Positions 1 through 3,483 of a stretch of 12,290 bases of DNA are shown one piece after another (the first letter of the stretch is position 1; every line of letters starts with the position of its first letter). The stretch spans positions 1 to 12,290 of the forward strand of contig CAKQDG010000067.1 of the NCBI GenBank assembly GCA_934219025.1, given 5' to 3'. The notes under the pieces are model-generated. The model saw only the letters and a list, made by a program, of their open reading frames with translations, had not been told where the DNA came from and made no database searches. Both the position numbers and the translations under genes were made by a program. The DNA is from an uncultured Prevotella sp. GTDB lineage: Bacteria > Bacteroidota > Bacteroidia > Bacteroidales > Bacteroidaceae.

Positions 1-170
1 CTCCCCTTGTCAGGGGCGGAGCAGTTACTCTTTCTGCTAAAAGCTTAAATGTTTACTGGTAAAATTAGTAATGATACTGATTTTTGTAATGACAAATATG
101 TAAGTTTATGACATTTAAAGGTATATACAAACCTTGTTGCCATTCTGTTTTACAGGTCGAAAATGGTTTC
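1..170. other. Non-coding left edge of the window
   Basis: No gene can be supported here. The first 21 bases form a GC-rich hairpin (CCCCT at 3-7 with AGGGG at 12-16) that is not followed by a T-run, so it is not an obvious terminator. Two plus-strand frames stay open from the edge for 15-19 codons before a stop (one stop at 46-48). Either could be the tail of an upstream gene, but they are too short to judge. From about 50 on the sequence is AT-rich, with a short palindrome TTTACTGGTAAA at 53-64. Confidence 0.4.
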
Positions 171-175
171 CTTTG
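144..175 (+). promoter_or_regulatory. Possible promoter of the structured RNA
   Basis: TCTG (144-147) lies 20 bp before TTCCTTTG (168-175). This resembles the Bacteroidetes -33/-7 pair TTTG and TAnnTTTG with one mismatch in each box. It would start transcription at about 180-184, a few bases before the folded rod. The match is imperfect and is supported mainly by its position. Confidence 0.35.
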
Positions 176-181
176 TTTTTT

Positions 182-338
182 ATGTTTATCGCCCTCTGAC
201 AAGTAAAAATGCCAAAGGCATTACCGGTGTATTGACGGATTTCCGAGAGAGAACTTGTTCTCGTAAGGAAATACGACAATACACAGGTAAGCACGAGGAA
301 CGAGGGCTTTACTTGTCTGAGGGGGTTTTATTGGTTTT
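182..338 (+). ncRNA. 6S-like structured RNA (long rod with central bubble)
   Basis: The sequence folds back on itself almost completely. A closing stem pairs 192-207 with 308-323 (16 positions, one U-U mismatch). An upper stem pairs 222-234 with 277-289 (13 positions, one G-A mismatch). It continues through a short broken section (236-237 with 274-275) and 239-244 with 267-272, to an apical hairpin GAGAA/TTCTC closed at 253/258. Between closing and upper stems is a bubble: one strand carries a small hairpin (ATGCC, AAA, GGCAT; 209-221) and the other an unpaired purine-rich stretch (290-307). A rod with a central bubble is the hallmark of 6S RNA, which binds the RNA polymerase holoenzyme as an open-promoter mimic. 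The closing stem runs into a T-rich tract (326-338), and the other strand would end in an A-rich tract, so plus is preferred. The overlapping ORF at 163-345 is explained by this element. Family assignment is by shape only; the ends are estimated. Confidence 0.55.
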
Positions 339-361
339 CGTCTAAAAAAACATTTGCCACT

Positions 362-402: not shown

Positions 403-437
403 AAAAAAATACAGGACTGCTTGTCCTGCATTTTTTA
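403..437. terminator. Bidirectional terminator at the end of the porT-like gene
   Basis: CAGGAC (412-417) pairs with GTCCTG (423-428) around a 5-base loop. It is flanked by an A-run (401-409) and a T-run (431-436) that can extend the stem past one A-C mismatch. It therefore reads as an intrinsic terminator on both strands. The stop codon of the minus-strand gene (435-437) lies inside its flank. On the plus strand it could back up termination of the structured RNA. Confidence 0.65.
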
Positions 438-1187
438 TTCGAAATAGAATGTAAGGGCGATGATTTTGCTGCGCGCCTCTTTCACGCTGTTTGCATACAT
501 AAAGCGGTCTGCCATGCTCGTGTCCTTGAAGCGCTTGGCATGGTTGGTGTCAAGACAGTTGGTCAGTCCGTAACAGAATTTCAGTTCCGGACGGAGTTTG
601 AAAAACGGCAGATAGAAGTCGCAACCCAAACCTAACTCCAGAAACACATCATACTTTTTCAGCTTTATATAGTCATTGCCGTTGCCCGAAAGGTTGAGCA
701 TGGGATTCACGCCAGCCATGAGATACGGACGGTAATTGTTGTGGCGCGGGGCACTGAATATCAGGTCGGCAGCCGCAGAGATGTATATCGTCTTCATCTG
801 CTGCGTTTGCGTAACGTTCTCGCCGCTGCCCGTCTTGTCGGTCAGGTTCATAAACTTGATGTTTCGTGTTCCGAAATACATTGCCGGGGCAAGACGGAAC
901 GCGAAATGCGTGCCGAGGCGTGTTTCGCCCAAAACACCCACGGTGAACCCGGCATCCCAGTTGCTCTGGTCTGCCGTTATGAGTTTTTCAGTCGTGCCGT
1001 CGTCGGTGGTTATCATCTGCGGACCGATGTTTGTCAGTTCCAGATCCTGAAGATGCGTGCCTACCATCACTCCGAAGTGAAACGGACGGAGATCGGTGTA
1101 CGGGCGATTCTGCACTTGAGTGTCTTGCGCCATGGCGCACATGGCTGTTGTCATGGCAACAAATATGATAAATAAGCGTCGTGTCAT
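435..1187 (-). CDS. porT: PorT-like outer-membrane beta-barrel protein
   Basis: A 250-residue protein with a signal peptide (MTRRLFIIFVAM..., cleavage probably after AMA-Q near residue 20). Its body alternates short hydrophobic strands with polar turns, as in an 8-to-10-strand barrel, and ends in the aromatic strand ALTFYFE, a usual signal for outer-membrane insertion. The motif RPYTDLRPFHFGVMVG just after the signal peptide, the length and the GLGCDFYLPFFKLRPELKF segment resemble PorT/SprT of Bacteroidetes. PorT is an outer-membrane component needed for the type IX secretion system. The ORF stays open to 1253, but the extra 22 residues would precede the signal peptide, so the start at 1187 is chosen. 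No other secretion gene lies in the window. The barrel call is firm; the PorT assignment is by recognition, and a generic PorT-family barrel is the alternative. Confidence 0.7.
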   Translation of the reverse strand: MTRRLFIIFVAMTTAMCAMAQDTQVQNRPYTDLRPFHFGVMVGTHLQDLELTNIGPQMITTDDGTTEKLITADQSNWDAGFTVGVLGETRLGTHFAFRLAPAMYFGTRNIKFMNLTDKTGSGENVTQTQQMKTIYISAAADLIFSAPRHNNYRPYLMAGVNPMLNLSGNGNDYIKLKKYDVFLELGLGCDFYLPFFKLRPELKFCYGLTNCLDTNHAKRFKDTSMADRFMYANSVKEARSKIIALTFYFE

Positions 1188-1421
1188 TATTCTGATAATA
1201 TATATATAATGTATAACGGAGTTTTTTTGCCAATATTGCATTGTTGCCGTCATTTTGCCTACCTACTTCTTGTTATTTAGCCCCAAATCCCAAATACACA
1301 ATATTTGTTATGCTGAATGATACCCCACAACAAACGTGGATGCAATAATCCGGCAAATGTGCCACTAAAAACACCGGAAATATCTTTGATAGTTAAAAAA
1401 TGAAAATATCTCTACCAACTA
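1188..1421. other. Divergent intergenic region, porT-like gene and ferredoxin
   Basis: The spacer before the ferredoxin promoter holds no ORF worth calling. It has an AT run at 1197-1210 just before the porT-like start. TATCTTTG (1381-1388) matches the -7 consensus on the plus strand but has no TTTG at the proper distance upstream. I could not find a convincing minus-strand promoter for the porT-like gene. Confidence 0.5.
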
Positions 1422-2712: not shown

Positions 2713-3483
2713 TCAGTCTTTGGAAATGATGAATCTGCCCTCCACATTGGAGTCTACAGCTTCGCCACGGGCAGCCTTATCCTTGAAATAGTTTATTATG
2801 ATAAAGCGCACGTTGTTTTTCTCATCCTTCGGACTGTTCACGCGGGTCTTGCTCTTGAACGCCACCATCCTGTCATTGCCCTCGGCAATATAGTCGAGAG
2901 TGGCTATGCGGTATTCTTTCTTGGGGTCCACGTCGTGGCCGTTGATTTTCAGGCTCTTGATATTTCCGGCCTTGTCTGAAACCACCTCCACGCCATGACT
3001 CACGGCCTGTCCGCCATATCCCGCCATCTGGGAGAAAAGTTCAAGCACCTTCTCGCCGGTAAGCGAACAGAAGCATATTTTATTTTCAAACGGCGCCACG
3101 TCGAGCACGTCGCCATAGGTAATCTCTCCGGCAGGAAACGACGCACGTATGCCGCCCATATTATATACGGCAAAGTCGGGATGCTCGCCGAAAGGTTCGC
3201 CACCCCATACCAGAATGTCGGCAAGAAGATTTGACAGCGGACTTTCGGGCTGATACTTCGAGAGCGGCTTTGCCGTGCGCCCCACCACTGGACTCATCAC
3301 GCTGTCCACCTTTGCCCTGTAAGGGGCGATGAAAGCTTCGGCGGCAGCGTCTTTGTTTCTGTCGTATCGGCTGTCTATCAGCATACGGCTACGGGTAACG
3401 CCTGCCATCTGGTAGTGCGAGGCACAACCTGTGACCATAAGTGCAGCCGACAGAATGATTGCGGCTTTGTATTTGCTACACAT
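2713..3483 (-). CDS. 5'-nucleotidase C-terminal domain lipoprotein
   Basis: A 256-residue lipoprotein: N-terminal hydrophobic stretch then lipobox VTGC with Cys20 as the lipid-bearing residue. From about residue 65 on it matches the substrate-binding C-terminal domain of UshA-like 5'-nucleotidases. It has the SPLSNLLAD segment, the YNMGGIRASFPAG motif, ITYGDVLDVAPFEN, and near the end YIAEGNDRM. In full-length enzymes this domain positions the nucleotide base over the metal site of the other domain. No metal ligands are present, so alone it should not hydrolyse. It is the first gene of the pair, and the catalytic domain follows 45 bases downstream on the same strand. Lipid anchoring could hold the soluble catalytic partner at a membrane; that is inference. 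The split form is common in Bacteroidales. Confidence 0.88.
   Translation of the reverse strand: MCSKYKAAIILSAALMVTGCASHYQMAGVTRSRMLIDSRYDRNKDAAAEAFIAPYRAKVDSVMSPVVGRTAKPLSKYQPESPLSNLLADILVWGGEPFGEHPDFAVYNMGGIRASFPAGEITYGDVLDVAPFENKICFCSLTGEKVLELFSQMAGYGGQAVSHGVEVVSDKAGNIKSLKINGHDVDPKKEYRIATLDYIAEGNDRMVAFKSKTRVNSPKDEKNNVRFIIINYFKDKAARGEAVDSNVEGRFIISKD

Follow-up and report, generated by a model that had tools for sequence, protein, structure and literature searches.

The window analysed here is a stretch of 12,290 nucleotides from an uncultured Prevotella sp., and the element described below lies near its start, in an intergenic region and on the plus strand. Its convergent neighbour, outside the element at 435..1253 on the minus strand, encodes an outer-membrane beta-barrel protein, and a terminator-like hairpin, recognised by eye and separate from the element, is found at 411-443. 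Positions 1-25 form a CTCCCC..GGGG-type start that by eye resembles CCTCCCC..GGGGAGG repeats. Elsewhere in the window, two adjacent minus-strand ORFs (1825-2667 and 2713-3483) hold a metallophosphoesterase domain and a 5'-nucleotidase C-terminal domain, which are usually part of one protein. The element itself is crossed by a 60-codon ORF (163..345, plus strand) and preceded on the same strand by a candidate promoter at 156..188, GTCG followed after 21 bases by TATGTTTA, which we matched to what we take to be the Bacteroidales promoter consensus.

A sequence-only reading had described, at 182-338, two long stems with single mismatches, a small hairpin facing an unpaired strand, an apical hairpin and a T-rich exit, and had proposed a 6S-type RNA. 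All of these parts are present in the sequence: the closing stem 192-207/308-323 spans 16 positions with a single U-U mismatch at 197/318, the stem 222-234/277-289 spans 13 positions with a single G-A mismatch at 226/285, and the small 5'-side hairpin, the apical hairpin and the T-rich exit can be read as well. The minimum free energy of 182-338 is -59.2 kcal/mol, with the stems at these same positions, compared with a mean of -35.3 +/- 3.6 for 200 dinucleotide shuffles (z -6.63; 0/200 as good). From the window fold and the consensus described below, we assigned on the plus strand the closing stem P1 (5' arm 192..206, 3' arm 309..323), the small hairpin P2 (209..221, AUGCC-AAA-GGCAU), and the long arm P3 (222..289), which contains internal mismatches and ends in the apical hairpin GAGAA-CUUG-UUCUC (249..262). 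The hairpin P4 on the 3' side of the junction (290..308, plus strand) was assigned from metagenome-derived rows and the consensus; in the window this purine-rich strand is unpaired, because A293 weakens P4. A conserved T-rich tail, TTTTATTGGTTTTCGTCTAAAA, follows at 326..347 on the plus strand.

Protein searches with the ORF at 163-345 identified ten relatives in metagenome assemblies, and queries from a minus-strand frame and a third frame yielded one and four further relatives, respectively. The relatives occupy three frames, one of them on the minus strand, and carry indels that shift the frame; therefore no single reading frame is conserved, and the ORF, which also has no Pfam match, was rejected as a protein gene. 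A conserved frame, which the sequence-only reading had named as speaking against an RNA, is thus absent among the metagenome relatives. Three of them, P0001, P0002 and P0012, appear to be the same loci from related strains: upstream, P0001 matches the window as far as position 101 and beyond its reach, with an upstream sequence also common to P0002 and P0012.

For an analysis of pairing, back-translated codon sets of the metagenome proteins were aligned to the window and forced changes were listed for the stem pairs. In P1, C-G at 194/321 becomes A-U in P0006 (where the codon set allows U or one other letter) and in P0008, a forced compensatory change that further supports both arms of this stem; 198/317 becomes a pair in P0005, and the U-U of the window at 197/318 is able to pair in each of the seven rows that have a forced change at one or the other of these positions. 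In P3, 224/287 changes from C-G to G-C in P0015. Other forced changes speak against the structure: pairing is impossible at 196/319, 204/311 and 236/275 in P0005, at 198/317 in P0014, at 199/316 in four rows, at 224/287 and 234/277 in P0003, at 227/284 in two rows and at 233/278 in P0015, with P0005 and P0015 being partly misaligned there. The positions 230/281 likewise cannot pair in 11 of the 12 changed rows, and relatives show G-A there. Arm-swap tests on protein-derived arms gave p 0.002 for 16 rows, two of which (P0009 and P0010) have no true 3' arm, and p 0.041 for 13 rows permuted within frame classes; taken alone, these tests support pairing weakly. Upstream, the candidate promoter reads GTTG-N21-TATGTTTA in metagenome relatives, with T at 158 forced in six rows (P0001, P0002, P0007, P0009, P0011 and P0012).

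The consensus of the window and 11 inferred rows (alignment A3) is a closed four-way junction of P1-P4; it is not an independent test, since two rows contain hand choices that favour pairing. The strand 290-308 forms a hairpin in the consensus of the metagenome-derived rows, and position 293 is C in 12 of the 13 rows that have a letter there (P0006 has A). The 'bubble' of the window is therefore a weakened four-way junction, which most of the relatives close with hairpins.

In a scan of genome contigs, the neighbour gene had one relative, in Prevotella pectinovora P4-76 (genome G001), with 81% over the best segment. The gene occurs in 360 of 398 genomes of the genus, and among the matches listed after P. 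pectinovora all are at or below 68%. In P. pectinovora it is followed by another gene with the element absent between them, and as this gene order was found in 1/30 loci only, P. pectinovora itself, synteny tells little. Blastn with the window copy gave no credible match in P. pectinovora and matches of no more than 34 bases in 8/299 genomes and 1/100 relatives, and a pattern from the apical region matched 0/398 genomes. We used two covariance models, R1 from the window and the metagenome-derived rows and R2 from four P. pectinovora genomic copies only, the E-values of both being rough. Searching 40 genomes (the 39 best by neighbour gene and G016), R1 matched P. pectinovora only, at two places with E 1.5e-6 and 1.6e-5; there was no match in the remaining 39, with 83 of 688-1760 candidates scored per genome, so that weak copies elsewhere may escape. 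Blastn with a P. pectinovora copy against the 398 genomes, at most two candidates being scored per genome, again found this genome alone. Within it, blastn with the copy C51 returned 28 places up to E 10, among them four full-length copies at different places, namely C51 itself, C14 (88%), C87 (85%) and C61 (71%); the other places were ten short tail matches, one 5' fragment and matches that were self-inverted or short. R1 found the same four copies and nothing else in 1.74 Mb of this genome (~3.3 Mb in total). Conversely, R2 recovered the window element at 188-327 on the plus strand with E 8e-9. It also matched its four source copies on both strands, as palindromes would, and gave no further places up to E 10 on either strand in 1.75 Mb beyond the window and these copies, and nothing up to E 1 in 56 other loci. 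A truncated copy, composed of the 5' flank, the P1 5' arm and the P2 5' arm followed by unrelated sequence, is located at L074 1501-1534. In all, the genomic evidence comprises four full copies and the window.

For two of the P. pectinovora copies the predicted fold has z -11.7 and -10.3, and 203 of the 208 pair cells in the four genomic copies are paired (97.6%). Both sides change in 18 of 52 pairs, with C61 contributing most of these changes, compared with a shuffled mean of 5.3 (0/500 as high) and at most 2 two-sided changes for slid versions of the structure. The inner hairpins of the four copies co-vary as well as the ends: in the helix matching P3, 11/17 pairs change on both sides, and the P3 apical hairpin, here GAGAG..CUCUC, is invariant in six of six pairs. 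P2, nearly constant in the metagenome rows, is represented in P. pectinovora by GUGGUGAC..GUCACCAC-type hairpins instead, and P4 reads AGCC-GUAA/GUGA-GGCU or AGCU-GUAA-GGCU. The candidate promoter motif is not clear in these copies. RNAalifold on a wider alignment (A8) found a kept two-sided change in 13/55 pairs. The compensatory changes that the sequence-only reading had suggested looking for in relatives are therefore seen in the metagenome rows, in A8 and in the four genomic copies. Positions 182-338 form a genuine cloverleaf-like RNA fold that evolution has maintained.

A 6S RNA has the shape of a long rod whose central bubble, open and asymmetric, imitates an open promoter, and it is the product of a single, widely conserved housekeeping gene. 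The window has the length, the rod shape and the T-rich exit for such an RNA. However, the consensus and the P. pectinovora copies have hairpins on either side of the bubble, which close the junction, and four copies occur in P. pectinovora with R1 finding 0/39 in the other genomes searched. At Rfam gathering cut-offs the window contained only a tRNA elsewhere and no family for the element, and neither the 6S nor the Bacteroidales-1 model matches the window, which leaves the suggested Bacteroidales-1 identity without support. Among 17 Rfam matches up to E 10 within 100-450 none was 6S or Bacteroidales-1, and the lowest E (0.022) fell outside the element; we took these matches for chance, as we did a hit to BTnc049 at L068 (21.9 bits against a cut-off of 81.9, E 0.11). 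Searched against 60 genomes of the genus, the 6S model RF00013 gave nothing at E <= 0.01; it had no match over its cut-off in 27 other relatives, and RF01685 had none over its cut-off in 40 genomes of the genus, so that a diverged 6S RNA could hide. Bacteroides thetaiotaomicron has a 6S RNA (PMC7366714), and the silence of RF00013 across relatives makes a miss of the 6S model alone weak evidence. The 6S reading fails because of architecture, copy number and distribution. Of the original proposal, a structured plus-strand RNA fold that is not a protein gene stands; the element is probably not a 6S RNA, and we consider one that binds RNA polymerase highly improbable.

In 5/5 copies the plus strand gives a better fold than the minus strand; the advantage is clear in four and slight in the window (-58.5 versus -55.3). 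The minus strand also folds well. The four copies have 13 G-U pairs when folded as plus and 3 when folded as minus, and their consensus pairs (208 cells) include nine G-U (G-T in DNA) and no A-C; one C-A is found among 11 single mismatches, and the window copy itself has no G-U pairs. These counts are biased towards plus, the strand for which the structure was predicted. The asymmetry favours pairing that acts as RNA rather than DNA, and it bears on a rival account according to which the element is a dispersed DNA repeat of MITE- or REP-like type and any RNA is incidental. The fold would then matter as a cruciform or as the single-stranded DNA target of a transposase or recombinase; alternatively, template switching during replication would keep the inverted repeats matched. 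The good fold of the minus strand is consistent with this, but the better plus-strand fold of all copies, the G-T pairs without A-C (on a structure predicted for the plus strand) and the co-variation of the inner hairpins argue against it.

The surroundings of the copies add to the case for a DNA repeat. The copies sit at different intergenic sites, several of them in repeat-rich stretches, and similar direct repeats flank the P. pectinovora copies: those of C87, C51 and C14, GGTTTATCTTGGTTTATCGC and TTTATCYTGGTTTTTGTCT, are alike, with C61 having a variant at either end. When the copies are aligned pairwise, all six alignments stop 16-23 bases past the core, defining a common 3' boundary, and the match between C51 and C14 begins ~28 bases before it; the shared unit is therefore ~190 bp around a folded core of ~135-140 nt. 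For several other copy pairs the alignment continues upstream into neighbouring repeats. The tail, in P. pectinovora TTATCYYGGTTTTTGTCT, also occurs alone elsewhere in this genome: its motif was found at 25 places with <=3 mismatches, compared with 7 for a reversed control pattern that had not been cleared of duplicates, and at 11 places with <=1 mismatch, 8 of them alone. Overall, we regard a DNA-level repeat as an unlikely alternative.

The eight lone tail motifs in P. pectinovora (TTATCYTGGTTTTTGTCT, <=1 mismatch, without the four-way junction) are located at reverse-strand offsets 126, 4272 and 15649 of L100 and 925 of L171, and at L111 19745, L112 279, L117 1127 and L132 18657; at two of these sites another repeated hairpin precedes the motif. 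CCTCCCC..GGGGAGG repeats crowd the intergenic stretches around the copies (L067 ~640-1400; L068 ~630-890). Dispersed intergenic repeats ending in CTCTGTGGTT are present in four Prevotella-genus genomes (L010, L018, L019, L052, L056, L059-L062 and L065) and contain CTCTNANAAnTCnAAATGCCAAAGGCATT, alike to window 191-223; one of them precedes an ORF that by eye resembles, presumably, a GxxExxY-family protein. Blastn in G016 and G131 showed 85-88% over 32-34 bases between 191-223 and dispersed repeats, the exact hairpin AATGCCAAAGGCATT occurs in 9/100 genomes at 12 places, six of them inside such repeats, and R1 scored 17.2 bits (E 0.09) at one such repeat, a single place seen through two overlapping loci. 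As the resemblance is confined to P2 and a few bases, we consider this kinship chance or minor. A phage or plasmid origin was also rejected: blastn with the window copy and with a P. pectinovora copy gave no match, no relative turned up in viral contigs when these were searched with a protein pattern, and two exact 17-base matches in viral contigs had unlike surroundings and no R2 match.

The orientation of the copies suggested a further possibility, a strand-specific 3'-end element that blocks or ends transcription between convergent genes. In 4/5 copies (the window, L067, L070 and L072) the 3' ends of the RNA and of the next gene point towards each other, 110 to ~250 bases apart. A simple hairpin would suffice for this role, however, the window has a separate terminator-like hairpin, identified by eye, and C51 (L068) is by eye not convergent, all of which makes such a function improbable. 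C51 is flanked by what we take, by eye, to be the start of a 16S rRNA gene (L068 1-60, at the contig end, reverse strand) and, from L068 ~1654 onward, by a gene that presumably resembles inositol-1-phosphate synthase, again judged by eye. A mobile RNA cassette appears rather unlikely to us: its four-way-junction fold would be recognised by the spreading machinery, as RNA or as one DNA strand, and it would insert at a repeated GGTTTATCYTGGTTTTTGTCT site and leave direct-repeat flanks, the structure being kept for movement and not for host regulation.

On balance, we favour the explanation that the element is one copy of a lineage-restricted, dispersed intergenic repeat family whose plus strand encodes a small structured RNA. 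The fold is maintained between copies and species, it recurs at four places in one genome with a common 3' boundary, and it contains no conserved frame. The RNA would fold as a closed four-way junction with a long P1, a short P2, a long P3 carrying the conserved apical hairpin and a short P4, and the pairing is likely maintained as plus-strand RNA. A stand-alone transcript may start near 190, near the GTTTATCGC motif, and the RNA may work as a scaffold whose shape and conserved P3 tip a protein recognises, with the unit spreading as a putative non-autonomous mobile repeat. If true, dispersed repeats with four co-varying helices and an apparent preference for one RNA strand would make small RNA genes and selfish repeats harder to tell apart. 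The family also changes fast: covariance models find the P. pectinovora copies and blastn with the window copy does not, so elements of this kind in gut Bacteroidales may escape notice. P. pectinovora P4-76 is a named strain that carries the family and in which the question can be tested.

The family occurs in a small group of gut Prevotella, and we found no description of it in the open-licence literature. A study of candidate structured RNAs from the human microbiome describes two that are Prevotella-exclusive, mostly near uvrC (PMC8040213); its candidates are of the same kind, predicted structured intergenic RNAs, and our comparison is with its descriptions rather than its 16,482 models, so that its model tables may contain the family. 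The Bacteroidales-1 motif (RF01693) is alike as a structured RNA of Bacteroidales, with no match up to E 10 in 100-450. 6S RNA (RF00013) and 6S-Flavo (RF01685) resemble the element in length, long closing stem and non-coding intergenic position, but their central bubble is open whereas the relatives of the element form a closed junction, and the element has four copies in one genome and no match to either model. REP elements are likewise intergenic, palindromic and repeated, but they are 20-40 bp single palindromes tagged by GTAG or CGTC (PMC3733652), whereas the element has a far longer core with four helices; CGTC is present in the window tail at 339-342, and P. pectinovora has TGTC. MITEs, one of which is described in Porphyromonas gingivalis (PMC4596501), are similarly short, non-coding and repeated, with terminal inverted repeats. 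The element has inverted ends and several copies, and flanking direct repeats are seen, at most a candidate target-site duplication; neither a transposase nor an empty site was found. It differs from MITEs in that its inner hairpins co-vary as well as its ends.
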